From a virus, in the IMG/VR virus record IMGVR_UViG_3300035698_007176, positions 1 through 23,455 of that record: 23,455 bases of DNA. One strand, written 5' to 3'. The notes under the pieces are model-generated. The model was not told the origin of the DNA. It ran no database searches and saw only the letters and a list, made by a program, of their open reading frames with translations. Positions 1,263 through 21,563 of this stretch are shown here, piece after piece. The translations under genes and the position numbers were made by a program. Positions within the stretch are counted from its first letter, which is position 1. Each line of letters opens with the position of its first letter.

Positions 1263-2750
1263 ATGCAGCAGCCGACTGATACCCCTGAACCGCCGCCTGG
1301 CGTCACGCTTCGAGACCCTGAGGACTCAGACGCTATCCGCGGTGACATCGAGGACTCGATGCTCGGTGCGATGGACCGCTACGTGAACGGGTATTCCTAC
1401 GGCGGCGTTAAGCTTGAGCTGAAGGACCTGAAATACGTCGGCGCCAAGTCCTACTCCAAGAAGGAGCAGAGCGATGCGTTGATGAGTGACCGTCTACTGT
1501 CCCGCCGGCTGCGCGGAACAGTCAGGCTGGTCAATGAAGAGGACAACAGCGTCCTGGACGAGAAGAAGAATATCACGCTGGCCCAGGTGCCCTACCTCAC
1601 TGAGCGCGGGACCTTCATCGACAACGGCAGCGAGTTCAGCCCTGTGATGCAGTCACGACTGCTGCCTGGGTCTTACACCCGCCGCAGGGACAACGGGGAG
1701 TTGGAGACGCACTTCAACACTCGACCCGGCACGGGGTCGGCCATGCGAGTCACATTTGATCCGACGTCCGCCCAGTATCGCCTCAAGGTTGGGTCTTCGG
1801 ATCTGCACGCTTACTCGGTCTTTAAGGACCTGGGCGTGACCGACGAGGAGCTGGAGCGCAGGTGGGGGCCGGATATTCTGGAGGCCAACCGAGCTAAGTA
1901 TTCCCGCCACACACTCGACAGGCTCTACAAGAAGGCCATTCCCAAGTGGGAGCGGGACGATTCGCGGGAGCCGGCAGAGAAGGTCAAGGAGATCCGGGCG
2001 GCGTTCGATCGTGCTCAGGTATCCGACGGCATCCTCAAGCAGAACCTGCCAAACCTCTACAGCCAGGAGAAAGCAGCTCGGTGGCGTATGGAGGGGCGAG
2101 CAATCCAGGTCATCCAGAACATGGCCAAGGAAGCCTCGCAACACTTCGAGCCCGACTTCACAGCCGCGCAGGTGTTCGACCAGTGGGAGTTCTTCGAGGT
2201 TGGTATGACGAAGCGGGCAGCGTTCGACCCGGACTTGAGCCCGGAGGAACTGAAGGAGACTTACAACTCTGTCTACGGCGGATCCGGGCCGAGGTTAGCA
2301 TCCATGCGGGCGTGGCCGAAGCACTGGCTCGACGGAACGGACAGTCAGGGTTGGCTGCAGTGGTATGAGAATTACTCCGCCGGTCGCCGAGGGGACACTG
2401 ACGAAAAGCAGAAGAAGCGGTGGAAGAACTTCAAATCCTTGCACGGCTCTCAGTTCGTAGCCAAACCCACACCGCGCAGAGCTTACGCCCTGGTGAACTG
2501 GGGGATCGACCCGATCAAGATGCTCTCGGACGAGAAGGGAGAGGACATGAAGGAGGAGATGGAGCGCTACCGCCGCGGCGAGTATGTGAAGTGGTTCATG
2601 AACCGCCACGACTTCGATGACGATGAGGCTACGCGGTTAGGCAAGTTGGCAAAAGGCCGAGGCGCCAAGACAGTGGACGAAGTTCCAGGCCCGGGTCAGC
2701 TGATGACGCTTGCGCTGGACGGTCACATTCAACCAGAAGATTTGAAATGA
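1263..2750 (+). CDS. phage multisubunit RNA polymerase, beta subunit N-terminal part, with an extra C-terminal module
   Basis: 495 residues. Residues 105-140 (ITLAQVPYLTERGTFIDNG, then SEFSPVMQSRLLPGSY) match the bacterial RpoB segment around '[27 protein letters not shown]'. Residues about 146-202 follow the next RpoB block ('iiPxRGxWLxFExDxKxxxxVRIDRRRKxP...LRALGxsdEEIL'), ending here in LGVTDEELERRWG. This is the N-terminal/lobe region of beta and is colinear with the next polymerase gene. The region after residue 315 is not RpoB-like. It begins with TKRAAFDPD and contains SQGWLQWYENYSAGRRG, then QKKRWKNF, which resembles an uncharacterised GW-WY-GRR-RW module I recall from phage and giant-virus proteins. 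The downstream stop overlaps the start of the next ORF as ATGA. The gene sits among head genes, suggesting a virion polymerase. Family assignment is firm for residues 100-200 and inferred for the rest. Confidence 0.8.
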   Translation: MQQPTDTPEPPPGVTLRDPEDSDAIRGDIEDSMLGAMDRYVNGYSYGGVKLELKDLKYVGAKSYSKKEQSDALMSDRLLSRRLRGTVRLVNEEDNSVLDEKKNITLAQVPYLTERGTFIDNGSEFSPVMQSRLLPGSYTRRRDNGELETHFNTRPGTGSAMRVTFDPTSAQYRLKVGSSDLHAYSVFKDLGVTDEELERRWGPDILEANRAKYSRHTLDRLYKKAIPKWERDDSREPAEKVKEIRAAFDRAQVSDGILKQNLPNLYSQEKAARWRMEGRAIQVIQNMAKEASQHFEPDFTAAQVFDQWEFFEVGMTKRAAFDPDLSPEELKETYNSVYGGSGPRLASMRAWPKHWLDGTDSQGWLQWYENYSAGRRGDTDEKQKKRWKNFKSLHGSQFVAKPTPRRAYALVNWGIDPIKMLSDEKGEDMKEEMERYRRGEYVKWFMNRHDFDDDEATRLGKLAKGRGAKTVDEVPGPGQLMTLALDGHIQPEDLK

Positions 2751-2926
2751 CAGACGCTGGGTTACTTTACGCCACGACGGCGATACTGTGGGGGATGTAC
2801 TCGTCAGTCCGCACGCACAATCTTTACGGGAGCGAAGGGCGTCAGATGCTGTCCTTCGTGATCAACGTGTTGGTTTGCCCCGTCGCCATTATGGTCACCA
2901 TTTACCAAGAGACCCATGACAGCTAA
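2747..2926 (+). CDS. small membrane protein (59 aa)
   Basis: The start overlaps the preceding stop as ATGA at 2747-2750, and the gene runs 11 bases into the next polymerase gene. The protein begins MTDAGLLYATTAILWGMYS and ends VCPVAIMVTIYQETHDS. It has two hydrophobic stretches (about residues 5-20 and 35-53) separated by a charged loop (SVRTHNLYGSEGRQ), so it is probably a two-segment membrane protein. It fills the gap between two polymerase genes with coupled junctions on both sides, which supports its being real. A holin-like role is possible from size and topology alone, but nothing specific supports it. Confidence 0.6.
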   Translation: MTDAGLLYATTAILWGMYSSVRTHNLYGSEGRQMLSFVINVLVCPVAIMVTIYQETHDS

Positions 2927-4589
2927 GCCCGCTCCTACCGCCAACCCTATGGCTCATCACCGCTACCTGGCGGATGACGACGAGCACGAAGCTTACTCAC
3001 CGATCGGGGTCGACGGTCTACTTGCCGCCACGGAGAAGCTCCTGGCAGTCAACCGCGGCCTGGCAGATCCCGATGACCGCGACTCGTTACCCAATGACCG
3101 GGTGCATACGGTGGACCGCCTACTAGCCGAGCGAGTGAAGCTCGATCACGGGCGGACTCTCCGGTCCATGATGGGTCGCCTGAGTCGGGCGAAGACACTC
3201 CAACCATTTGGGGCCAATGCGTTTGGCGAATACTCCACGGGCTACATCAAGAGTAACCCACTGGTCCCGGCTCTCGAGGGGATCAACCTCATGCATAACC
3301 TGGAGCAGAAATGCCGCATCACCAAGATGGGGCCAGGAGGGATCGGCGATCCCAACGCAATTACGGAGGACATGCAGGCTGTGTCAGCGACGCAGTTCGG
3401 CTTCGTGGATCCTATCGCGGGGCCAGAAAGCCTGTCCAGGGACACGTTGATATTAAGTGACTTAGGTTGGGTTACGGCTCACGAGGTAACGATGAAGCAC
3501 CGCCTGGCTTGTAACATCGACGGGCGGTTGGAGTTCCGCCATCCAGAGAAGGTTCACAGTTACCCGTTCAAGGGTGAGTTGATTGGGGTGAAGACGAAGT
3601 TCATGGATTTCCTCGTGACTCCCACGCACCGCATATGGTCCAGGGATACGGACAAGCGCAACGCTCTTGGTCGTCACTGGCAGATGAGGTTCGCGGGGGA
3701 CATCTTCGGTCGCGCCGTGAATTTCGAGATGGCTCACGACCCTATCCTGCACACTGGAGATGAGACGTTCACGGGCCTCGAAGGCTGCGAGTTCCCGATG
3801 GGGCCGTGGTGTAAGTTCCTGGCCTACTGGATGGCTGACGGGTCCCTCAAAGGAGATGGGGCGTGGATTGCGATTACCAATGCTACTACCAGACCAGCAT
3901 ACGCCGGCATAGGGGAGGTCCTGGACGCTCTGGGTCTACAGTGGAAATACAGTCCCAGCAAGGATCCTGGAGCAGTAGGTAAGGGGGACTTTCTGATCAA
4001 GCACGGCGCGCTGTGGGATTACCTGCGGCAGTTCGGCAAGGCCGGGACGAAGTATCTGCCAGACTACATCCTACGCCAGAGCGTTGAGGTGCGGGAGTCT
4101 GTATGGCAGTCTCTCATGGAGACTGACAGCCGGGTCAACGCGTCGCATACCTCGTTCGTCTCCACCAGTAAGAGGTTCGCTCGTGTGGTGGAGCGCCTGC
4201 TGATATCCCTCGGTCACCCAGTATCCTTTCGCGAAGAGCCTGATTCCAGAGAGCACGTTAAATCCACTAATTGGGTTGTCTCGAAGCTGAAGCTGACGAC
4301 GCGGCAGGCGATGACGCCTTCCCACAACGGGTGGTACAAAGAGGCCTACGATGACGACGTGTTCTGCGTCACCGTCTCAGGCGGGATGATCTTCACTCGC
4401 CGAGGTGATGGTTACGGGCATTGGACGGGTAACTCTGAGAAAGCAGGCATCGATGTGCGCCTTGCTCACGGAGCAAGGATTGGGTCAGATGGTCGAATTT
4501 ATCAGTTGCTACTCAACCGTAAAACCGGTAAGAATGAATGGGTCTCCCCTAGTGATATGAGGGGTAAGACCGTCAAACTACCCGACTAA
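2916..4589 (+). CDS. phage RNA polymerase beta subunit, central part, interrupted by an intein
   Basis: 557 residues, of which 172-506 are an intein; the spliced product would be about 222 residues. The N-extein has DPDDRDSLPNDRVHTVDRLL (51-70), matching RpoB 'DDIDHLGNRRVRSVGELL'. It then has NLEQKCRITKMGPGGI (128-143), matching 'ELTHKRRLSALGPGG', and FGFVDPIAGPE (161-171), matching 'YGRICPIETPE'. The C-extein SEKAGIDVRLAHGARIGSDG continues as 'GPNIGLIxSLAxYAxxNEYG'. This is the fork/rifampicin-pocket region of beta, following directly from the gene at 1263. The start ATG lies inside the end of the small membrane gene; the upstream sequence has only a weak purine run (AAGAGA). The protein ends shortly after this block, and the following beta sequence resumes in the gene at 17367. 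As translated, the protein must be spliced to restore the conserved motif. Confidence 0.88.
   Translation: MTAKPAPTANPMAHHRYLADDDEHEAYSPIGVDGLLAATEKLLAVNRGLADPDDRDSLPNDRVHTVDRLLAERVKLDHGRTLRSMMGRLSRAKTLQPFGANAFGEYSTGYIKSNPLVPALEGINLMHNLEQKCRITKMGPGGIGDPNAITEDMQAVSATQFGFVDPIAGPESLSRDTLILSDLGWVTAHEVTMKHRLACNIDGRLEFRHPEKVHSYPFKGELIGVKTKFMDFLVTPTHRIWSRDTDKRNALGRHWQMRFAGDIFGRAVNFEMAHDPILHTGDETFTGLEGCEFPMGPWCKFLAYWMADGSLKGDGAWIAITNATTRPAYAGIGEVLDALGLQWKYSPSKDPGAVGKGDFLIKHGALWDYLRQFGKAGTKYLPDYILRQSVEVRESVWQSLMETDSRVNASHTSFVSTSKRFARVVERLLISLGHPVSFREEPDSREHVKSTNWVVSKLKLTTRQAMTPSHNGWYKEAYDDDVFCVTVSGGMIFTRRGDGYGHWTGNSEKAGIDVRLAHGARIGSDGRIYQLLLNRKTGKNEWVSPSDMRGKTVKLPD
3429..4433 (+). mobile_element. intein with LAGLIDADG-type homing endonuclease in the beta central gene
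   Basis: It spans residues 172-506 (335 aa) of the host protein. Block A begins at Ser1 (SLSRDTLILSDLGWVTAHEV). Block B has VTPTHRIW with the TxxH histidine. The first endonuclease helix is KFLAYWMADGSLKGDG and the second is near ESVWQSLMETDSR. Block F is DDVFCVTVSGGMIFTRRGDG, and block G ends HWTGN before the +1 serine. The penultimate residue is Gly rather than the usual His, a known variation. The second endonuclease motif is weaker than the first (TDS instead of TDG), so nuclease activity is uncertain. The insertion lies between PIAGPE and SEKAGID, in the counterpart of PIETPEGPNIG, one of the most conserved beta motifs. Removing it leaves an uninterrupted beta alignment. Confidence 0.9.
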
Positions 4590-4590
4590 T

Positions 4591-4788
4591 ATGAGTGAAC
4601 CAACCGACTTCCCGATGCCCTCACAAGAGGAGTTCCGTAACGCCCGCCACGCTGGATTTGATGATTCAGTAGCGCCACTGGCTACGGAACGTCGCGACCG
4701 TCTGACTGCTGCCCACCGTCCCCAGGACGCTCGCCGTGAGGCGAATGTGAATGGGTTCTACGCAAGTGTCCTCGGTAACGAAGACTGA
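4591..4788 (+). CDS. small hypothetical protein (65 aa)
   Basis: It begins one base after the stop of the beta central gene, and its stop overlaps the next start as TGATG, so it is translationally linked on both sides. It is polar and probably mostly disordered (SEPTDFPMPSQEEFRNARHA), with several Arg and Asp residues and a short C-terminal segment (ANVNGFYASVLGNED). No homologue family is recognised. Its position inside the polymerase transcript raises the possibility of a small polymerase or virion accessory factor, but this is inference from location only. Confidence 0.6.
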   Translation: MSEPTDFPMPSQEEFRNARHAGFDDSVAPLATERRDRLTAAHRPQDARREANVNGFYASVLGNED

Positions 4789-5507
4789 TGTCACACGCCA
4801 GACGGCGAGTCGAAAACCCCGATAGAGCTTTCGACTCCGCTAAGACGGCGCCCGCCTCCGGCACGCCGCTAGCGTTAGTATATCTGGAGTCCTACCTCGA
4901 GGGGAAGGCGAACAGGAAGCTAGCGACTGCAGCCCTTCTGGGGTGTAGCACGCGCACAGCTGGGAGGATCGCTTCGCGCACCACAGCTTACACGGCTGGG
5001 ATGAAGATGGAGTGGGTCTACCGCATCTGCGCCGTAGTCGGGAAACCTATGGGCGACATCCTGGGAAGCCGCAACCCAAAGGAGTGGGGAGACTGTATCA
5101 TCGGTTGGAACCACGCCCGCAATGCTGCGGAGGGTATCCAGTTCGCAACGGACTGCGCTCTCGCTATCGTCTACAAGGCCTACACCGGGTTCTCTCTGAC
5201 CGGTGGGTTTACTGTTTCGTATCACGGGGGCTTCCCGAGTGACGTGACAATCTTCCTGTCCCCAGCGCCAGAGATGAGCGTCAACAAGGGTCGATTCGGG
5301 TTGCACCGGATAATCGTGACCTCTGAGCGCACCTCGCCCGACAATCGCAAACGGATGTTCGTGCAGCACATCGACCCAGTGGATGACCTGCAGGATAAGA
5401 ATTTCCTGACCGTTAAATACCTCGAACAAATACTCAAATATATCTATGGCATTACAAAGCACCTCCCCGCCGAGCTCCAACGAGAGGCAGCTCGATCGGC
5501 CGCCTAA
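4788..5507 (+). CDS. protein with probable helix-turn-helix N-terminal region (239 aa)
   Basis: Residues 43-92 (RKLATAALLGCSTRTAGRIA ... VYRICAVVGKPMGDILG) fit the layout of a Cro/C1 (XRE)-type helix-turn-helix: a helix, the LGCSTRTAGRI recognition unit, and a last helix with RICAVVGKPMGDIL like 'RIAKALGVSLDDLL'. A variable loop of about ten residues separates the parts. The C-terminal two thirds has mixed strands and helices (GGFTVSYHGGFPSDVTIFLS) and matches no family I recognise. The start is coupled to the previous gene (TGATG). DNA binding is inferred from the pattern. A role in phage transcription or DNA packaging would suit the position between polymerase and portal genes. Confidence 0.6.
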   Translation: MSHARRRVENPDRAFDSAKTAPASGTPLALVYLESYLEGKANRKLATAALLGCSTRTAGRIASRTTAYTAGMKMEWVYRICAVVGKPMGDILGSRNPKEWGDCIIGWNHARNAAEGIQFATDCALAIVYKAYTGFSLTGGFTVSYHGGFPSDVTIFLSPAPEMSVNKGRFGLHRIIVTSERTSPDNRKRMFVQHIDPVDDLQDKNFLTVKYLEQILKYIYGITKHLPAELQREAARSAA

Positions 5508-10304: not shown

Positions 10305-11759
10305 ATGGCGAATCCTATAGAATCCGTAGCACGCGCAGCTAAGGCTGGCTTAACTGGAGTCATTGCACCGGGCGACCGTGCGGCGCAACAAGATGCTCGC
10401 GGCGGCGAGATGGTGCGAAGTCTAGCGACTGGAGGCCTGGCTCTGGGAGCTGGCACCGGCGCGCTGGTTGCTCTCGTGAACTACCTCAAGTCCATGAAGG
10501 AGGAGAACGAGATCGAAGACGAGTCGCGAATGAATGACGACACGCTTTACATCCCTGAGATTAATAAAACTGCAGCAGATGGAGACGTGAATCGATTCGT
10601 CGCGCCTGGCTTGGCTGTTACGGGTGGTATCCTGTCGGCTGGCGGTGCCTATGCGTTGACCCAGGCCGTCTACAACCACCTCCAGAAGAAGCGTCGTCAG
10701 GCTATGTTAGACGAGGCACAAGGGGAAGCTCTCCTGGCTGCAGATCTCGAAGCTGAGAAGTCTGCGGCCAATATGGATTTCTGGGACTTAGCTACCGCAT
10801 TCCCCGTGGCGGTGCCGCTACTGGCAGCACTCGCTTCCGGGGGTGTGGCTTACGCTGCACTGAACAAGACGTTCCCAACTGTTAAGAACCCCAAATCGAA
10901 GTTTCCAAAGCGTATCCGGCAGGTTTCTCAGACGGGACAGGTATCTGACCTGGACGATGAGGACGAGCCAGTCAAGATGGCCTCCGATTACGCCGGCGAG
11001 GCGGACTGCGAGGACGCGGCGAGAGAGTTCCTCATCCTAACCGTGGACCAGATGTCTCACGAGAAGTCTGCCTCGGTTAGGCTCACGTCGGACATCTTGA
11101 ACCGCGTCGCGAAGGATGGACTAGCAGGTGTGGCTCACATTCAGAAAGCAGGCGGACTGGAGGCTCTCGTGGAAGCTGTTAAAGGCGCGTCACACGAGCC
11201 GGCCGATCTACCGAACAAGGTGCTCGCCGCGGCAGCCATCTGTAAGTCAGCCCGCCTACGACCAATCGTGTCCATGCTCGCCTCGGCCGAGTTCCAAGAG
11301 CTCGCCCCGGATCTTTACGACTCAGCCCTGTCTTACGGTGATGAGCAGCTGGAGAAGTTTGCCGGTATTGCTCCGTTGATGCACCTCATGTATTTCCGAC
11401 CATTGATACTGGAAAAGAGCGCGATGATGAACCCTCTGATGGGGGAGCTGGAGGAAGAGATGAGTCCCTACCAGGATGGCATCGGAAACAACGAGGAAAT
11501 GGCGGCTGGCCTAGGCAGCGGTATGAATCATATGGACCCAGCAGACATGGCGGGTGGTTTGATGTCGGACATCAACGGCCCTATTGGCTCTGACTCTGCT
11601 GAAGGCGACGCGGACGAGATTCCCGAGGAGATGATGCAGGACAACGCTCCTGAGGATCCTGTGGATGAATTCCTGCTCACCCAGGGAGAGGAATCCCCGA
11701 TCCTTATACCAGCAGACGACGAAGGCGAGGAAGAAGAAGGTGCCGCGATCGTTAACTAA
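10305..11759 (+). CDS. probable virion protein with three hydrophobic segments and repeated EKSA motifs (484 aa)
   Basis: Hydrophobic Gly/Ala-rich segments lie at about 41-61, 98-120 and 163-186. The motif K-(S/T)-A appears at INKTA (86-90), EKSA (151-154), EKSA (253-256), CKSA (313-316) and EKSA (370-373). Related EKFA (350) and VKMA (223) also occur. The middle region (230-350) is helical. The last 110 residues are Met/Gly/Asp/Glu-rich and strongly acidic, ending near GEEEEGAAIVN. TACAAT at 10287-10292 lies 12 bases before the ATG and could serve as a -10 box. A strong terminator follows. Likely an internal or ejected virion protein, by analogy with its neighbours; no family is recognised. 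Confidence 0.65.
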   Translation: MANPIESVARAAKAGLTGVIAPGDRAAQQDARGGEMVRSLATGGLALGAGTGALVALVNYLKSMKEENEIEDESRMNDDTLYIPEINKTAADGDVNRFVAPGLAVTGGILSAGGAYALTQAVYNHLQKKRRQAMLDEAQGEALLAADLEAEKSAANMDFWDLATAFPVAVPLLAALASGGVAYAALNKTFPTVKNPKSKFPKRIRQVSQTGQVSDLDDEDEPVKMASDYAGEADCEDAAREFLILTVDQMSHEKSASVRLTSDILNRVAKDGLAGVAHIQKAGGLEALVEAVKGASHEPADLPNKVLAAAAICKSARLRPIVSMLASAEFQELAPDLYDSALSYGDEQLEKFAGIAPLMHLMYFRPLILEKSAMMNPLMGELEEEMSPYQDGIGNNEEMAAGLGSGMNHMDPADMAGGLMSDINGPIGSDSAEGDADEIPEEMMQDNAPEDPVDEFLLTQGEESPILIPADDEGEEEEGAAIVN

Positions 11760-11775
11760 AAACCCAAACAACTTT

Positions 11776-11812
11776 CAAGAAGGCCCGACGTCGTAAGGCG
11801 CGGGCCTTCTTG
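11776..11812 (+). terminator. rho-independent terminator after the portal/virion block
   Basis: A perfect 12-base stem (CAAGAAGGCCCG at 11776-11787 with CGGGCCTTCTTG at 11801-11812) encloses a 13-base loop. The 3' side is followed by only a short CTT tail. It lies 17 bases after the stop of the 484-residue gene. Confidence 0.85.
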
Positions 11813-11834
11813 CTTACAAACCCATACAAATATT

Positions 11835-12398
11835 ATGAAGAACATCCAAGAAATTGAAGCAGAACTTGTCGACGCCGCCCCAGGCACTGTTGTCCTAGTC
11901 AAGGGCTACACCAACTCCGCCGGGAACAAGGCGGACGTTTCCTTCGAGCTTCTCGGTAATGACGCTTTCATAGCGTTGATGCACGAAGACCTGAAACTGC
12001 TGCAAGACGCCGCAGAAGATCAAATGATACTCTTCGATGACCTGACGGCACTTAATATGCTGGCAGCCAAACAACAGCTTACCGTCTCGCGTAAGGCGTC
12101 CATCGGGAGCAGAGACAGTAAAGAGCCGTCGAGGGGCGGCGCAGCATACACAGCGGTCGGAGGGTCCCTCGCCGTCTTAGATTCTGCGCCAGGTGCGCTT
12201 TACATCCTGGGTGTCAAGATCAAGGGTGCTCCAATGCTGCCTAAGCCTGCGAAGGGGTCGATCCCCCGCGCCAGGCAGCGCATCACAGCGTTGTTGGATC
12301 TACCTTCCCGCTACTACGCGCACAGTATCAAACTGGCGGATGGGAAGTTCGACGACCTCGTCGTCCTCACGAAGGTCGCGGGGACAGCGAATGTCTAA
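11835..12398 (+). CDS. hypothetical protein (187 aa)
   Basis: It is the first gene after a terminator, so it must have its own promoter, although only a TACAAA/TATTAT-rich stretch just before the ATG can be pointed to. No Shine-Dalgarno is present. The protein starts with an acidic helix, then has strands (TVVLVKGYT, KADVSFELLGNDAFIALMHE). A Ser/Arg/Lys loop (VSRKASIGSRDSKEPSRGG) follows, and then a hydrophobic C-terminal half. It has no cysteines and no membrane segment. No family is recognised. It could be a small virion or tail component given the surroundings. Confidence 0.6.
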   Translation: MKNIQEIEAELVDAAPGTVVLVKGYTNSAGNKADVSFELLGNDAFIALMHEDLKLLQDAAEDQMILFDDLTALNMLAAKQQLTVSRKASIGSRDSKEPSRGGAAYTAVGGSLAVLDSAPGALYILGVKIKGAPMLPKPAKGSIPRARQRITALLDLPSRYYAHSIKLADGKFDDLVVLTKVAGTANV

Positions 12399-12503
12399 AA
12401 CCCTGCTATTCTGGCCCTAACTGTGGTTTCACGGAAACAGCAACTCTGACCCCTCGTCATTCTGCCTTAACTGGTTTACAGTCAGTTAGGCGGGGTGACT
12501 GCG

Positions 12504-12522
12504 GTTGGGGCCAACTTTTTTT
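12504..12522 (+). terminator. weak rho-independent terminator candidate
   Basis: GTTG (12504-12507) pairs with CAAC (12512-12515) around a GGGC loop, directly followed by seven T residues (12516-12522). The stem is short, so it may work only together with the larger hairpin just upstream. Confidence 0.45.
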
Positions 12523-12582
12523 ACCTACGTGAAAACAGCCTGCCACAGTTACAGGTTAGCGGCCCCCTGAGGAAGAAACGGG

Positions 12583-12610
12583 TTGACTGCGCCGTGTAAA
12601 AAGGTGAATC
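12583..12610 (+). promoter_or_regulatory. candidate promoter before the gene at 12617
   Basis: TTGACT at 12583-12588 is a strong -35 match. With a 16-base spacer the -10 position is TGAATC (12605-12610), a poor match, 6 bases before the ATG. The layout copies the other leaderless-type promoters here, but the -10 is weak. Confidence 0.35.
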
Positions 12611-12616
12611 CTACTC

Positions 12617-13198
12617 ATGGAGAAACCCCCAAAAACGAAGGATGTCAGGCTGTATGACAAGTCTGGACACCCCATAAAAGGTAAAGTTCCGACACCTCTC
12701 ACCGCCTCCTGGTGCCGGCGAGCCTACTACAAGGGGCCGGCGAGAGTCGGTGAGTTCGATGAGGACGGCAGACCAGGAGACTTTGTCCGTGATTCCCTCG
12801 TGCGGGCCCAGGTGCCTTACGTGGTCACGCTGCTGGTCTACAACAGCAAGTTTGAGATTGAACCCACTCACCGCGAGTATTTCGTTTACGCCCCGCTGGA
12901 GATACAGAAGGCTGCGGAGCTGGGATTTCGACTGTGGCAACGGTGGGAGCGACCCAAACGCACAGGGGAGTTCCTCTTCGGTGACATGCGCGACGTGTAT
13001 CCCAAGGTGGATGACGGAATCGTAGCTGAGCCTATCGGGGACGAGGATTTCGCTGCGCACTTGAAGGATGTGAGGGCTCGCAAGCATCGCCTAGCAGGTG
13101 ACCCGGGCGATCCTTTCGCCTTTACCTGTCTGGACCAAGACGTTAAGGTATTCAAAACCGCGGACTTTCAAGAAGGTCTTAAGGTCACTATTCAATAA
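12617..13198 (+). CDS. hypothetical protein (193 aa)
   Basis: It starts after the structured intergenic region. The N-terminus is Lys/Pro-rich, followed by RLYDKSGHPIKGKVPTPL. A strand-rich centre follows (VPYVVTLLVYNSKFEIEP, EYFVYAPLEIQKAAELGF), then an acidic patch near 130-145 and a C-terminal segment with DVKVFKTADFQEGLKVTIQ. The composition suggests a soluble alpha/beta protein without membrane segments. No family is recognised. The spacing of 18 bases to the next gene puts it at the head of a short operon (12617-15275). Confidence 0.6.
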   Translation: MEKPPKTKDVRLYDKSGHPIKGKVPTPLTASWCRRAYYKGPARVGEFDEDGRPGDFVRDSLVRAQVPYVVTLLVYNSKFEIEPTHREYFVYAPLEIQKAAELGFRLWQRWERPKRTGEFLFGDMRDVYPKVDDGIVAEPIGDEDFAAHLKDVRARKHRLAGDPGDPFAFTCLDQDVKVFKTADFQEGLKVTIQ

Positions 13199-13216
13199 AA
13201 TAACTCAGCAACAACA

Positions 13217-13744
13217 ATGACATCACACACCCAAGAAAGTCTTGACGATCTAGCCCGTAAGGGAGACGTCCAAAAGGTAGCGCAAAGCCTTGACCTGTCG
13301 GTTGACGGAACACGAGCGGACGTCACCGCACGCATCCTGGAGTCTCAGAGTGCGGAAGCGCCTGCCGAATCAGAGCGAGCACGTGCCGACGACGGGCAGT
13401 TCACACCCGACGACGATGCCACGCAGCCAAGCGAGGCATACGTCCCACCGAAGCCCCGTAAGGTTTCAAACGGAGCGAAGAGCTTGGCGGGACGAATCGT
13501 CGCAGGTTACATCTCTGAAGAGGAGTATACCAAGGACGTGGAGACGCAGGTTTTGACAGCGCTGTCAGAAGGCAAGCAGCCGTGCATCGTCGAGGGTAAA
13601 GGAAACCGCCGATTCGCCCTCAAGGTGTTCGACAAGGAGTTCAGCTATACAGACCTGTCGAGTGATATTGCGGCGAAGAGTGGGGGAGTTATCCTAAACG
13701 TCGCTCGCCGTCTCGCCGATGCCAACGTCTTCCCAAGCGACTAA
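13217..13744 (+). CDS. SAP-like domain protein (175 aa)
   Basis: Residues about 8-42 (LDDLARKGDVQKVAQSLDLS, then VDGTRADVTARILE) fit the SAP/LEM-like two-helix pattern 'L.dLkelakklgLsvsGtKaeLieRIl', a small fold that often binds DNA or RNA. A disordered, acidic, Pro-containing linker follows (45-85), then a folded C-terminal domain (KSLAGRIVAGYISEEEYTKD ... RFALKVFDKEFSYTDLSSDI). The start has no Shine-Dalgarno and is preceded by an A/C-rich leader (CAGCAACAACA). Nucleic-acid binding is inferred from the motif. In this context it could be a head-internal DNA-binding protein or a transcription factor. The C-terminal domain is unrecognised. Confidence 0.6.
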   Translation: MTSHTQESLDDLARKGDVQKVAQSLDLSVDGTRADVTARILESQSAEAPAESERARADDGQFTPDDDATQPSEAYVPPKPRKVSNGAKSLAGRIVAGYISEEEYTKDVETQVLTALSEGKQPCIVEGKGNRRFALKVFDKEFSYTDLSSDIAAKSGGVILNVARRLADANVFPSD

Positions 13745-15368: not shown

Positions 15369-17360
15369 ATGATCAAGGCGGCCAGCAGTATCGAACTTCC
15401 TATCGTAAAGAGGATCATGAGTTGTATCCACGACGAGGATCCAAGTTACTGGCCTCATGGACTGGACTCAGCTCAGTTTAACGGCGGACTCTACCTGGTG
15501 CAAAAGTCCGCCAGCGCAGAGCCCGTGGGCTTTGTAGGGTGGCAGAAGTTCAACGAGTCCGGGCGGGATGTCGGATACTACGCGATCGGTATCCTACCTG
15601 AGCACCGACAGCAGAGCTTCGCTAAGCAGGCAGTGACCCAGGTCCTACGTGAGATCGGCGGGCAGTGCGACGAAGTGAAGGCTATGGTGATGGTGCACAA
15701 TGAGCCGTCGAAGGCGTTGGCTCGATCCCTCAGTATCCCCATGATCGAGAAACTCGCAGCCGAGAAAGCCGGCTCCACCAAGGCGCAGATCGTGCAGGGG
15801 TTGTTAGGCGCAGTAGGCACTACAGCGTTGTTCGACCAGACTGCCGACCCGGACCGCTCTGTGGGCAGCACGTTCCAACCGTGGAAGTGGGACAAGGAGC
15901 GCAAGCTAATGGGCAGTCTGAACGCTATCCTGGGTGGATTAGGCGGACAGCAGATGGCGAAGGGAGAGTTTGGCCGAGGGCTGACTTCCATTGCCCTGGC
16001 CCCTACGAAAGACCTGGCTGTGAAAGGGATCGGGTCGCTGCACAACATTGATGACGCCGCGAAGAAGTTTTCTGAGGCTCCTGAGGTAGGTGGCATTCCT
16101 ACAGGAGCCATGATAGGCGCGGGAGGTATCGGTCTCGGTGCCCTGGGTCTACTCGCCTACAGCGCCAAACGAAAGGCCGACCACAGAAAGGCTGTCCTCG
16201 AGGAGGAAGCCAAGGGCCGGGTGCGTATCACCTTACCCACCAAACAGGAGGGCGACGCTGAGACACAGATCGAACTTCCGTTTGATGAGATCAACCTTTC
16301 CAACGCACTCCGAGGCCGCCTCAGCCGCGACACCCGGAGACGACTCTACGCAGAAACGAAGCAGCGCACCCGCCAGCGCAAGCCGAAGGATCCCGAGAAG
16401 CCCACGGAGGCTGAGCGCGAGACCTTGGAGTTGGTGCGGGAAAGCGACGATCTTGACAAGGCCGCGACGATGAACGAAAAGCTGCAAGGGCTTGTGGCGG
16501 AGCTCGAACTTCGCAAGCGCGGGTCTATAGGGCCAGCAGTAGCTCCGCAGAACGCGGTGCCTACGCCTCCTCAACTGGGACAGAATCCAGCGCTGAGAAT
16601 GAACCAGCAGAATCAAGCGGTAGCTAATTCTATCCAGCCGGCCCCTGATGCTAACCCGCAAATCATGCAGGCCGAGCAGGCAGCAATGCAAGCAGAGCAG
16701 GCAGGCGCGCAGCAAGCCGCCGAGATGGATCAAGCTAATCAGCAGGCCCAGATGGACCAGCAAGCGCAGTTCCAGCAAGCAATGTCAGCGTCAGAGCAGG
16801 AGAAAGACGTGCTCAAGATGCAGCTCGAGAAGGAGAAGGCTATGGGCGAGCTGAATAAGGCGCAGGCCGCAGCCGAGGCGAAGTCCAACGACGCTGCTGC
16901 AACGTCTGCAGCAGATGCAGCCAAAGGTGAGGGCACTGAGTCTCAGAAGCTGATCTCGAACCGAATCGGAAGGTTGGGTAAGCGAGTGAAGTCGGCGAAG
17001 GCTATCATGAACCCCACCGGGCCTCTACCTGGCAACCCAGTTAAACCAGGAACGCCGGGGACTCTGAGCGGTAACACTGGTCAGGTTATTCCGGAAAAGC
17101 CGGTCTACTTGAAGCCGCACGCGATGAACATTATGAACTCTTCTCCGGAAATGTCCGCCATGATCCCAAACATCGGCGTGTATCGCCACTCTTACGGACC
17201 CATGCTGGACTCCGTCTACGGGATGTTCAGGGATCGTTTCCTGAAGCCCACTCCGCCCCAACCCATAGCGCGCATGACTCGATCCGACATGATCAACAAC
17301 CCGGACATGATTGGATCACTTAGCCGAGTTTATAACGGGATACTGCGGCAGAACGCGTAA
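15369..17360 (+). CDS. probable virion protein with N-terminal GNAT-like domain (663 aa)
   Basis: Residues about 40-125 resemble a GNAT N-acetyltransferase core. VGFVGWQKF is followed by DVGYYAIGILPEHRQQSFAK, matching the acetyl-CoA loop pattern 'Q/RxxGxG/A' (with Ser for the first Gly), then AMVMVHNEPSKALARSLSI like the final 'N..a...y.k.GF' segment. After this come a Gly-rich hydrophobic segment (244-265), a basic region (RDTRRRLYAETKQRTRQRKP), a Gln/Ala-rich coiled-coil-like stretch (430-505) and a C-terminal domain rich in Met, Pro and Asn. Motif copies QKSA (46-48), AEKAGSTKA and LDKAAT link it to the neighbouring virion proteins. Acetyltransferase activity is plausible but the degenerate loop may be inactive. 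The C-terminal part is unknown. Confidence 0.6.
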   Translation: MIKAASSIELPIVKRIMSCIHDEDPSYWPHGLDSAQFNGGLYLVQKSASAEPVGFVGWQKFNESGRDVGYYAIGILPEHRQQSFAKQAVTQVLREIGGQCDEVKAMVMVHNEPSKALARSLSIPMIEKLAAEKAGSTKAQIVQGLLGAVGTTALFDQTADPDRSVGSTFQPWKWDKERKLMGSLNAILGGLGGQQMAKGEFGRGLTSIALAPTKDLAVKGIGSLHNIDDAAKKFSEAPEVGGIPTGAMIGAGGIGLGALGLLAYSAKRKADHRKAVLEEEAKGRVRITLPTKQEGDAETQIELPFDEINLSNALRGRLSRDTRRRLYAETKQRTRQRKPKDPEKPTEAERETLELVRESDDLDKAATMNEKLQGLVAELELRKRGSIGPAVAPQNAVPTPPQLGQNPALRMNQQNQAVANSIQPAPDANPQIMQAEQAAMQAEQAGAQQAAEMDQANQQAQMDQQAQFQQAMSASEQEKDVLKMQLEKEKAMGELNKAQAAAEAKSNDAAATSAADAAKGEGTESQKLISNRIGRLGKRVKSAKAIMNPTGPLPGNPVKPGTPGTLSGNTGQVIPEKPVYLKPHAMNIMNSSPEMSAMIPNIGVYRHSYGPMLDSVYGMFRDRFLKPTPPQPIARMTRSDMINNPDMIGSLSRVYNGILRQNA

Positions 17361-17366
17361 CACCCC

Positions 17367-20300
17367 ATGCACGTTGTAAGAAACAATCGCCTCGAGGAGA
17401 TCGCAGACGACGACCAGGACGTCGACTACGAGCTGACTGACGCCACGCGACAGTATGGTAGTCACACCAACTCGATCCCTCTAGCCAGCGCTGTGCAGGC
17501 CCCGCGCCTGTTCTACGGCGGCCGCTTTGCTAACCAGGCTCTAGCGATCGAGGGCGGAGAAGCACCCCTGGTGCAGAACCTCGACACGACTGACCCTGAT
17601 GGGCGCAGCTTCGATGAGACCGCCGGCGAGAAGCTGGGAGCCGTCCGCGCCAAGCAGGGCGGTAGAGTCATCTCCGTCAAGCCGGACTACATGCGCGTGC
17701 GCTACGATGACGGGAAGACGGACGACATCGGCCTCTACCAGGACATGGCCTTCAACCAGAAGTCTGGTATAACTTCCCGCCCCCTCGTGCAGAAGGGCGA
17801 CGTGTTCAAGCCAGGGCAGATGATGGCCGCGTCCAGCTACACTGACGACAAGGGCGTGCAGAACATGGGCCTGAATGCCCGAATTGGCCTCGTCCCTTAC
17901 AAAGGGTTCTCGATGGACGACGCCATCCCCATCTCCGAGTCCTTCGCTAAGCGCCTGTCCGCCATCCAATACAAGGTGGTGAAGCAGGACAGCACGGACA
18001 ATCTGAAGACAGGACTGAACCACTACCGCGCGCTGTTCCCGAATAAGTTCAAGAAAGAGAAGCTCGAAGCGTTCGATGACGACGGGCTCGTCCGGGCAGG
18101 CACGATCCTCGAACCCGGCGACCCCGTGCTACTGGCTACCATGCCTCGCACACTGTCGAGCTCGGGCGCCAATGTAGGGAAACTGTCCAAGGCCCTCCGG
18201 CAGCAGCGTCGAGACGCCTCGCAGACCTGGCACGGCAATCAACAGGCTAAGGTCGTGGCGTCGAAGAAGACGAAGAACGGTTACAAGATCGTCCTCAAGT
18301 ATGTCAAACCGACGGAGGAAGGGGACAAGATCGTTTTACGACAAGGCGCGAAGGCGACAGTGTCTAAGATCATCCCCGACGACCAGATGCCTCGCACCGA
18401 GGACGGGCAGGCTCTCGATGCGCTCCTCAATCCGTTGTCACTGGTCAGCCGAGCCAACCCGGCGTCGCAGCACGAGATGCGCCTGGGTAAGATTGCTCGC
18501 AAGATGGGCGTCGCTCTAAAGCTGCCCTCCTACCTTCCCAAAGGAGAGAACTGGAACGATTACATCGATAACCTGGAAGCCGAACACGGCGTCGAGTCCA
18601 AGGAACGTGTGTTCGATCCTGAGACGGATCGATTCCTGTCCGACCCCGTCACCGTAGGCTACGCCTTCGTCAACAAGCTACACCACACCTCGGAGGGTAA
18701 AGTATCCTCGCGAGGCACCGGCAGCTACGACTGTTTTGACGCCGAGACAGAAGCACTGACCGCTCGGGGTTGGGTGGCGTGGCCTGACGTGCGTGACGAT
18801 GACCTGCTGTGTGTCCCGTCGGAGGATATGGCAACCGCGGCATTCGAGAAGCCAACCAGGTTGGTCGATTACGATTTTGACGGGCACTTGCTGCGCTATG
18901 AGTCTACGCATCTGGACTGGGCGGTCACGCCGCAGCACAGGTTCCTGACCTACGGTAAGGGAGGTAAGATATTTTACCGGGAGGCTGCGGAGCTGCGCGA
19001 CGTCTGTCGTGTTGCAGTGCCGCAATTCGGATTTGAAGTGTCGGCCACTACCCCAACTTCCAAAGTGATTCATCCAACGTCGCAAGGCCGCGCGGCGAGG
19101 AACAGTGAACCTCTTGTGGTGGGGTTTATGGACTACGCCGCGTTCATGGGGTGGTGGATCTCGGAGGGCAGCGTGCAGGGCGCCCGTGTTTACATTTGGC
19201 AGCACGCCGACATACACCCAGAGCACAGCGCGGAGATAAAGAGCCTCATGTCTCGCATTTTTGGGAAGGACCCGATGGACCACGCTGGGCGGGGCTGGCG
19301 CACGGACGACAGGAGGGCGGCCGAGTTCCTAGCGGGCTACGGGACGAAGTCTGGGGATAAACGCATCCCCCGGGACATCATTGAGGCCGGCGGCGAGGCG
19401 GTGACGGCTTTCATGGATGCCTACGTGAAGGGTGACGGCACGGACGGGGAGTATGAGAAGTATGACGGACGCCAGGCGCTCAATGTCGTGCGGGCTGTAG
19501 GGAGCACCAGTCCGCGACTGATGGACGACATGCAGGAAATGCTCATGCGGCGTGGGCTGGGCCTCATCGCTCGGAAGACTCGCGACGACGGGGCTGAGGT
19601 TAGATTCCCCGACCGTGAAGTGGTCTACCACGGCGCGGCGTTTTACTCCGGGGCTGTGCATAGCAAGCGCAAGCGGGCCACGGTAGTCCCTCGGAAGGGC
19701 ATCCCGCGCTACAAGGGTGCGTGGAGCGAGCTCCGTTATACTGGGAAGGTCTATTGCGCGACCACTAGCACGGGACTGCTGGTCGTCCGCCGTAACGGTA
19801 AGCCAGTCGTCACTGGTAACTCCAACGAGCAGCCCAGCCGAGGCGGCGGAGAGATGGCCCAGGCGAAGAGATACTCTGGCCTGGAGAACTTCGCCACCCT
19901 CTCAAGCGGCGCCTACTCGCTCATGCGGGAGAACTCCACACTCCGCGGACAAAAGAACCACGATTTCTGGCGGGCCCTACGCTCGGACAGACCGCTCCCC
20001 AAAATCGACGAGCCGTTCGTGTGGCACAAGTTTCGCGCGATCCTGGCTGGAGCCGGGATGAATACCAAGGAGACCAAGAAAGGCCGCTACCGCCTGTCAC
20101 CATTCACAGACAAGGACCTGGACGAGCGCGGACCCATTGATATCGACAACGGCGAGATGGTGAACCTTAAAAACCTAGAACCTGTCAAAGGCGGACTGTT
20201 CGATGGTCGACTACTCAACGGGGAGAAGTGGGGCCGAGTCCGACTCCCCCGTCCGATTATCAACCCGGCAATGGAAGACACGGTGCGCGTGATGCTTGGC

Positions 20301-20369
20301 ATTACCAAGAATCAGCTGGAAGAAGTTCTCGCCGGTCGTCTCGACTTGGCTGAGGCCATGGAAAAATAG
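17367..20369 (+). CDS. phage RNA polymerase beta subunit C-terminal part, with intein, fused to a beta-prime N-terminal segment
   Basis: 1000 residues; 637 after removal of the intein (456-818). Residues 35-70 (NSIPLASAVQAPRLFYGGRF) match RpoB '[26 protein letters not shown]'. LNARIGLVPYKGFSMDDAIP (169-188) matches 'NMRVAFMPWNGYNFEDSI'. EEGDKIVLRQGAKATVSKII (317-336) matches 'GDKMAGRHGNKGVISKI', with both catalytic-centre lysines kept. LNPLSLVSRANPASQHEMRL and VGYAFVNKLHHTSEGKVSSR complete the match, followed after splicing by EQPSRGGGEMAQAKRYSGLE, the counterpart of '[27 protein letters not shown]'. From about 909 the sequence turns beta-prime-like (RLSPFTDKDLDERG ... EPVKGGLFDGRLL ... WGRVRLPRPIINP), without a zinc finger, and then stops. 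The start has no Shine-Dalgarno and lies 6 bases after the previous stop. Confidence 0.88.
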   Translation: MHVVRNNRLEEIADDDQDVDYELTDATRQYGSHTNSIPLASAVQAPRLFYGGRFANQALAIEGGEAPLVQNLDTTDPDGRSFDETAGEKLGAVRAKQGGRVISVKPDYMRVRYDDGKTDDIGLYQDMAFNQKSGITSRPLVQKGDVFKPGQMMAASSYTDDKGVQNMGLNARIGLVPYKGFSMDDAIPISESFAKRLSAIQYKVVKQDSTDNLKTGLNHYRALFPNKFKKEKLEAFDDDGLVRAGTILEPGDPVLLATMPRTLSSSGANVGKLSKALRQQRRDASQTWHGNQQAKVVASKKTKNGYKIVLKYVKPTEEGDKIVLRQGAKATVSKIIPDDQMPRTEDGQALDALLNPLSLVSRANPASQHEMRLGKIARKMGVALKLPSYLPKGENWNDYIDNLEAEHGVESKERVFDPETDRFLSDPVTVGYAFVNKLHHTSEGKVSSRGTGSYDCFDAETEALTARGWVAWPDVRDDDLLCVPSEDMATAAFEKPTRLVDYDFDGHLLRYESTHLDWAVTPQHRFLTYGKGGKIFYREAAELRDVCRVAVPQFGFEVSATTPTSKVIHPTSQGRAARNSEPLVVGFMDYAAFMGWWISEGSVQGARVYIWQHADIHPEHSAEIKSLMSRIFGKDPMDHAGRGWRTDDRRAAEFLAGYGTKSGDKRIPRDIIEAGGEAVTAFMDAYVKGDGTDGEYEKYDGRQALNVVRAVGSTSPRLMDDMQEMLMRRGLGLIARKTRDDGAEVRFPDREVVYHGAAFYSGAVHSKRKRATVVPRKGIPRYKGAWSELRYTGKVYCATTSTGLLVVRRNGKPVVTGNSNEQPSRGGGEMAQAKRYSGLENFATLSSGAYSLMRENSTLRGQKNHDFWRALRSDRPLPKIDEPFVWHKFRAILAGAGMNTKETKKGRYRLSPFTDKDLDERGPIDIDNGEMVNLKNLEPVKGGLFDGRLLNGEKWGRVRLPRPIINPAMEDTVRVMLGITKNQLEEVLAGRLDLAEAMEK
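18732..19820 (+). mobile_element. intein with LAGLIDADG-type homing endonuclease in the beta C-terminal gene
   Basis: It spans residues 456-818 (363 aa). Block A starts at Cys1 (CFDAETEALTARGWVAWPDV). Block B has WAVTPQHRFLTYG with TxxH. Endonuclease motifs are YAAFMGWWISEGSV and AVTAFMDAYVKGDGTDG. Block F is TGKVYCATTSTGLLVVRRNG, and block G ends KPVVTGN before the +1 serine. The penultimate residue is Gly rather than His. Both acidic endonuclease positions (Glu and Asp) look intact, so homing activity is plausible. The site falls in the conserved RpoB segment between 'ARSTGSY' and the '[14 protein letters not shown]' loop. The class differs from the first intein (Cys1 versus Ser1, different endonuclease sequence), so the two probably arrived independently. 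Confidence 0.92.
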
Positions 20370-21077: not shown

Positions 21078-21563
21078 ATGCTTAAAATACATCTCATCAG
21101 CACCCGGGGGAACCTCTTACGCGAGGATCTCTCAGGTATCATCACAGACGCCCGCAGCTTGAAACAATACCATTCGGAGTTGCTCAGACTCTGTAAGGAG
21201 AAGCAAGGGGTCGGCGTATCGGCCAACCAGCTCGGGCTCAAGGAGAACTTCTTCTTCGTGACCGCTGGGGCCAAGTTCCCGACGAACAGCGGAAAGAACT
21301 ACGCAGCAGCTAACATCTGCGCTAACCCCACGTGGAGGTCGAACGGGCAGTCCAGCCTGGTGGACAGCACCGAAGGCTGTTTGTCCTTACCAGGGCGAGA
21401 CTTCGTGGTCCTTCGTGAAGGTATCATCGACGCCGAGTGGACCAATGTGCTAGGGCACCGCATCCGCCGCAAGCTCAAGGGCTGGCCGGCGCGTGTGTTC
21501 CAACACGAGCACGACCACCTGCGAGGCGTGACTCTTCTGGAGTCCGGGAAGGAGGTCAAATGA
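21078..21563 (+). CDS. def: peptide deformylase
   Basis: 161 residues, a normal length for the family. All three signature motifs are present: GVGVSANQ (44-51, motif 1 GxGxAAxQ with Ser for one Ala), EGCLSLPG (99-106, motif 2) and QHEHDHLRG (142-150, motif 3). These supply the metal ligands Cys101, His143 and His147 and the catalytic Glu144. The enzyme removes the formyl group from N-formylmethionine of new proteins in the cytoplasm. Phage copies are known, for example in cyanophages. The start has an A/C-rich leader (AACAACAACAGC) and no Shine-Dalgarno. The stop overlaps the next start as ATGA, and the end of the gene contains an AAGGAGGT site that serves the next gene. Confidence 0.95.
   Translation: MLKIHLISTRGNLLREDLSGIITDARSLKQYHSELLRLCKEKQGVGVSANQLGLKENFFFVTAGAKFPTNSGKNYAAANICANPTWRSNGQSSLVDSTEGCLSLPGRDFVVLREGIIDAEWTNVLGHRIRRKLKGWPARVFQHEHDHLRGVTLLESGKEVK

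Follow-up and report, generated by a model that had tools for sequence, protein, structure and literature searches.

The locus and its relatives

We analysed a phage record of 23,455 bases from IMG/VR (IMGVR_UViG_3300035698_007176), called the window throughout, in which the genes considered all lie on the + strand. Judged by portal and polymerase, this phage is distantly related to Salmonella phage Arash and to Vibrio phages D69, D148, and D181, and its group consists of large phages encoding their own RNA polymerase. The RNA polymerase beta subunit of the window is split into separate ORFs (1263-4589 and 17367-20369), the two parts lying 12.8 kb apart across other genes. Two ORFs carry intein-like inserts, the first of which is much shorter in L006. 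Other genes in the window include an ORF whose N-terminal GNAT acetyltransferase domain is followed by a long C-terminal region (15369-17360) and a peptide deformylase gene (21078-21563).

The 218-base gap that had drawn attention to this locus was borne out at 12399-12616, between two + strand ORFs and with only short ORFs inside it. The following features are discussed (T7 denotes seven T residues):

4788-5507, + strand: probable Cro/C1-type helix-turn-helix protein, candidate regulator by a putative link, about 7 kb upstream of the gap
11835-12398, + strand: upstream gene UP, 187 aa; all five other sequence groups have an orthologue 5' of the gap
12399-12616, + strand: intergenic region, most likely a control region; length roughly kept among relatives (173-278 bases), most of the sequence not alignable between groups
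12418-12423, + strand: repeat copy 1, TAACTG forward, seen in the sequence, within the 9-base long-range pair
12468-12473, + strand: repeat copy 2, forward TAACTG, inside the local hairpin at 12464-12491 (5' arm)
12483-12488, - strand: repeat copy 3, reverse CAGTTA, inside the same hairpin (3' arm)
12504-12522, + strand: short inverted repeat followed by T7, terminator-like in sequence, not called by a consensus scan
12546-12551, - strand: repeat copy 4, CAGTTA reverse, on the 3' side of the 9-base long-range pair
12575-12588, + strand: promoter element GAAACGGGTTGACT, conserved among relatives, with the -35-like TTGACT at 12583-12588
12605-12611, + strand: expected -10 position, TGAATCC, a poor match in the window; by eye, some relatives have better -10 sequences
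12617-13198, + strand: downstream gene DN, 193 aa, with its start codon 28 bases past TTGACT

Searches of Pfam, PHROGs, and NCBIfam found no family for UP or DN of the window, the structure model of DN was poor (mean pLDDT 52.8), and a tRNA search found none. A DNA search of phage records with the gap and its flanks gave no match, single-protein scans of viral contigs with DN, UP, and a polymerase piece gave no relative, and a genome contig scan returned one distant polymerase relative; the syntenic contigs came from alignment-based scans of viral contigs. The order of UP, gap, and DN is kept in seven relatives (L030 and L034 to L039, records G001 to G007), and for three more contigs (L041, L042, and L044) the comparison is confined to the gap and the first part of DN. 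Including the window, the comparison covers 11 contigs in six sequence groups, i.e. ten other IMG/VR contigs and five further groups. Another lineage, L079, is a 6.3-kb contig found by its portal that stands outside the gap comparison, the gap being missing because the contig ends less than 1 kb past the portal. The start of the 200-kb record G002 recurs near its end (L055, L064; 23 bases matched, position 200000) and the portal gene spans the ends; this record is therefore probably complete and circularly permuted.

The gap measures 218 bases in the window, 238 in L034, 278 in L035, 250 in L030, L036, and their kin, 221 in L039, and 173 or 185 in L038 depending on the start codon chosen, and most of it fails to align between sequence groups. 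L030 and L036 differ by 2.8% in the gap, 4.2% in UP, 4.7% in DN, and 1.6% and 2.4% in two other neighbouring genes, figures that are no evidence either way on selection in the gap within this close group.

A conserved, probable promoter element before DN

The -35-like TTGACT before the next gene turned out to be the best supported part of the original prediction, with TTGAC found at near-constant spacing in six of six groups. It is kept in all 11 contigs, 28-32 bases before the start codon of DN as counted from the end of the hexamer: 28 in the window and L039, 29 in L035, L030, five further contigs of the L030 group, and L038 (assuming the second of two ATG codons), and 32 in L034. These spacings were not drawn from the MAFFT alignment, which misplaced L039. 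Directly 5' of TTGAC, four of the six groups carry AAAC(G/C)GG. Because TTGAC stands just before the start codon of DN, the repeats described below lie upstream of the promoter.

Leaderless sigma-70-type promoters are built from TTGAC, a spacer of 16-18 bases, a -10, and a start codon a few bases on. The window resembles them in having TTGAC far enough from the start codon to fit a spacer of 16-18 bases and a -10, but differs in that its -10 is poor. Judged by eye at a spacing of 16-18, the -10 is poor in both the window and L039 and fair in L035 and L038, and a consensus scan of 11700-13300 found no sigma-70-type promoters, with 0.7 expected. An SD-like sequence is missing by eye at five of six starts, the window having AAGGTG ten bases before its start codon. 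From the conserved sequence and spacing, TTGACT at 12583 is probably the -35 of a sigma-70-type promoter, which would start an almost leaderless mRNA, from a predicted start site, for the operon beginning at 12617.

Other predicted genes of this phage group have similar near-leaderless promoter candidates. Within 90 bases upstream of 573 predicted genes in six contigs, 13 of 32 TTGAC copies lie at a spacing of 23-40 (a count made without a shuffle control), and two of these 13 have a good -10 by eye (TATACA and TAAATA). Possibly another promoter class is represented by GTCATAATGATTTGCTA, which occurs in or beside two neighbouring gaps of G002 (L062; 156331-156529 and 158335-158521).

Short repeats in the gaps

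Repeated 6-mers are moderately enriched in the gap of the window, where we counted 30 pairs on either strand against a shuffle mean of 15.2 (reached by 6 of 500 shuffles); for 7-mers, there were 10 pairs against 4.8 (37 of 500). Separated by orientation, the 6-mers form 19 inverted pairs against 8.7 (5 of 400 shuffles) and 11 direct pairs against 6.9 (64 of 400). Each gap repeats its own motif of 6-9 bases in three to five copies on both strands: GTATCA five times in L036 and L030, ACTGCCA four times in L035, ATGACCG five times in L038, CTCAGAA three times in L034, and GTAGACA four times in L039, counting the upstream stop codon. For every one of seven gaps tested, between 0 and 12 of 500 shuffles had as many equal 6-mer pairs. 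With 7-mers, five of six groups have more inverted than direct pairs, and a clear excess of direct pairs over shuffles is confined to L035, L030/L036, and L038; an excess of inverted pairs would also come from hairpins in RNA or DNA.

When the best hairpin arm of a gap was sought elsewhere in the same gap, the recurrence had a joint p of 3.7e-5 over six gaps, with individual values of 0.006 (L035), 0.034 (L030), 0.004 (L038), and 0.026 (L039), and with the window (0.152) and L034 (0.267) not significant alone. The best arm of L034 belongs to a second motif, not to CTCAGAA.

We also asked how common such repetition is in the rest of each contig. A 6-mer as frequent as in the gap (four times or more) occurs in 15 of 465 stretches of the window, that of the gap included, and the corresponding 7-mer count is uninformative, with 436 of 465 stretches as frequent. 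For the relatives, again with the own stretch counted, a motif as frequent was present in 18/385 (6-mer) and 29/385 (7-mer) stretches for L034, 93/3950 (7-mer) for L035, 49/3631 (7-mer) for L030, 4/1106 (7-mer) for L038, and 64/1539 (6-mer) and 97/1539 (7-mer) for L039. Sixteen of 59 non-coding gaps in six contigs, this locus included, are repeat-rich (at most 1 in 100 shuffles), and only three of these 16 lie at this locus, namely the L034, L038 (in part only), and L039 types; the gaps of G001 and G002 at this locus are absent from the 30 gaps listed, probably because ORFs are predicted inside them. The window's own gap reached 9 in 100 shuffles in this control. Several of 11 stretches inspected contain, by eye, terminator-like hairpins or codon-like repeats. 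Only one motif cluster (at least three copies in 300 bases) was found outside the gap, in G002 near 136 kb, and single copies elsewhere occur at roughly the background rate, several records being incomplete. The G002 cluster (L061, 135800-136460) is a second cluster of ACTGCCA, far from the gap.

Control region, ordinary gap, or structured RNA

As the most likely explanation of the gap, we favour a control region acting on the phage genes that follow over an unusually folded RNA. Support is good for a conserved promoter region and, for a phage-private array of sites, moderate across the family but weak in the window alone; a structured switching RNA is unsupported. Our main reading, to which we assign a probability of about 0.5, combines the promoter with an upstream array of phage-private regulator-binding sites and, in the window, the small terminator-like T7 element. 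The roughly four copies of a phage-private motif, on both strands upstream of TTGACT, would most likely be regulator sites, and a phage-encoded regulator at these predicted sites would set promoter activity. In the window phage, termination of the upstream operon is probably due to the T7 element. In favour of this reading are the kept gene order, the spacing of TTGAC, the private motif of each gap, the joint recurrence of hairpin arms, and the orthologues of the candidate regulator. Counting against it are the recurrence values of the window and L034, the repeat-rich gaps elsewhere, the predominance of inverted pairs, the weak -10, the empty promoter scan, and the AAGGTG of the window, as well as the distance of the candidate gene and its helix-turn-helix match below the cut-off.

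Alternatively, though somewhat unlikely, the gap could be an ordinary intergenic region with a terminator of the upstream operon and a downstream promoter, the repeats of the window being due to chance and the hairpins of the relatives being terminators. The small hairpin with seven T residues does exist in the window (GTTGGGGCCAAC at 12504-12515, then T x7 at 12516-12522), only L034 among the other groups showed a comparable element (T7-ACC) by eye, and a consensus scan called no + strand terminator inside the gap. The T7 element in the window and L034 and the conserved promoter element fit an ordinary region, as do the fold and recurrence test of the window, both within chance, and the strong terminator-like hairpins seen by eye in other gaps, repeat-rich gaps not being rare. 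However, a T tract after the hairpin is missing by eye in four of six groups, and four groups have hairpin arms with further copies within the gap (p 0.004-0.034). An ordinary terminator plus promoter had been named in advance as the finding that would explain away all the structure; it goes part of the way, with a terminator-like element and a promoter element present and further copies of the hairpin motif left over.

A structured RNA with alternative pairings, be it an attenuator, a switch, or a small RNA, is improbable, even though the individual pairings that the original prediction described can all be found. The stem of nine base pairs is a hairpin between GCCTTAACTG (12464-12473) and CAGTTAGGC (12483-12491) with one bulged base, the long-range pair matches exactly over nine bases (TAACTGTGG at 12418-12426 and CCACAGTTA at 12543-12551), and competing pairings are present (TGGCCCTAAC with GTTGGGGCCA and CCTAACTG with CAGTTAGG). 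The switch proposed from the latter is unsupported, the fold energy lying within chance, and the description of a highly structured RNA did not hold either: z was -1.3, with 18 of 200 shuffles folding as stably or better, and -1.15 in a second calculation, with scores as low in ten of 30 stretches drawn at random from the sense strand of this contig. For the minus strand, 57 of 200 shuffles matched or exceeded the stability of the gap. On the + strand, z was -1.15 in the window, -3.24 in L034, -4.20 in L035, -1.03 in L030, -2.83 in L038, and +0.30 in L039; the minus strand gave, in the same order, -0.45, -2.40, -2.61, -0.34, -3.08, and +0.37. Random stretches were as low in 1 of 30 cases each for L034, L035, and L038, in 7 of 30 for L030, and in 23 of 30 for L039.

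A structured RNA thus has in its favour the competing pairings of 8-10 bases, the enriched inverted repeats, and the folds of L034, L035, and L038, which are more stable than shuffles; because of these low z-scores, structure is possible in the three relatives. Against it stand the values of the window, L030, and L039, the similar scores of the minus strand in three groups, and the failure of the gaps to align between groups. In the close group, where only three distinct and near-identical rows could be aligned, the check for covariation found no two-sided change among 72 pairs and four pairs disrupted in one or two rows, and no substitution in these rows fell within a 7-mer motif copy. Moreover, an Rfam search of the window and six relatives found no family at its cut-off (one match reached 15.8 bits against a cut-off of 41.2), and a transcript from the conserved promoter would lack the pairing region because this region lies upstream of it. 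Inverted repeated sites give hairpins in any case, and the pairing noted originally comes from the inverted copies of the motif, which are complementary at the RNA level as well.

A replication origin or partition site with iterons is very improbable and was rejected as the main reading, since, despite several short repeats in one gap that are private to each phage, minimum and maximum of the cumulative GC skew both lie away from the gap in G001, G002, and G003, a different gap of G001 (96727-97133) looks more origin-like, and the present gap is directly upstream of the conserved promoter element. That G001 gap (L049) contains a long imperfect inverted repeat around an AT-rich core.

A candidate regulator

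For the main reading, in which a phage regulator would bind the repeats of the control region, the probable helix-turn-helix protein encoded at 4788-5507 is our candidate. Its ORF has an orthologue in all six groups (six of six records searched), about 7 kb upstream of the gap. No Pfam family matched the copy of the window, the L006 orthologue matches HTH_31 at 5e-5, below the Pfam cut-off, and none of the six records has a match above it. The structure model places helices over residues 25-92, with block pLDDT of 80-94 for residues 21-90. Foldseek gave no match at E <= 0.001 (all E > 0.02), and the top ranks by E were HppE enzymes, not a phage regulator; XRE-named chains reached a probability of up to 0.93 and the transcriptional regulator 3op9 one of 0.98, all at E > 0.1.

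The putative recognition helix, CSxxTAxR, keeps its framework in seven lineages, each of which has its own combination of residues at the x positions, and one recognition helix is common to six contigs with a near-identical gap. We take the x positions to correspond to the DNA-facing positions in Cro/C1 proteins. The whole candidate is divergent (18-36% identity), and the variable helix positions are therefore not special in themselves. Other regulators are possible, since searches of the six records with PF13560 and PF01381 turned up two additional HTH_31 matches, both weak, in G001 and G002. It is a quite doubtful idea that each lineage keeps an array at the same promoter with both site and regulator contact residues rewritten, i.e. 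a private operator code; if true, such codes would be expected where related phages are selected against responding to each other's regulator.

If the array is real, these phages with their own RNA polymerase genes offer a natural series of re-specified regulator/site pairs, and the array reveals which promoter of these genomes is privately controlled. Otherwise, we are dealing with an ordinary terminator plus promoter, and the RNA label can go. In a limited search of the literature on Arash, stoperators, split RNA polymerase, recognition helices, and leaderless phage promoters, we recognised no description of this region, which does not imply that it is unpublished.

Comparison with known systems

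Lambdoid operators are near-palindromes that overlap the promoter and lie beside the gene of a Cro/C1 repressor. The gaps studied here resemble such operator arrays in their cluster of short sites beside a promoter and in the candidate helix-turn-helix regulator with variable contact positions, but most sites look like half-sites and precede the -35, with about 7 kb separating them from the candidate gene.

The stoperators and operators of Cluster A mycobacteriophages, as described in PMC6550527 and PMC9283540, consist of many short copies that are spread over the genome mostly in one orientation, with site and repressor differing between related phages. Instead of a genome-wide distribution in mostly one orientation, we found clusters in the gap and one in G002, on both strands. 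Compared with stoperators as portrayed there, the copies in our phages are clustered in one gap and lie in both orientations, and the repressor is a candidate only, but both have short sites in many copies, here putative, that differ between related phages, as does the repressor or, here, its candidate.
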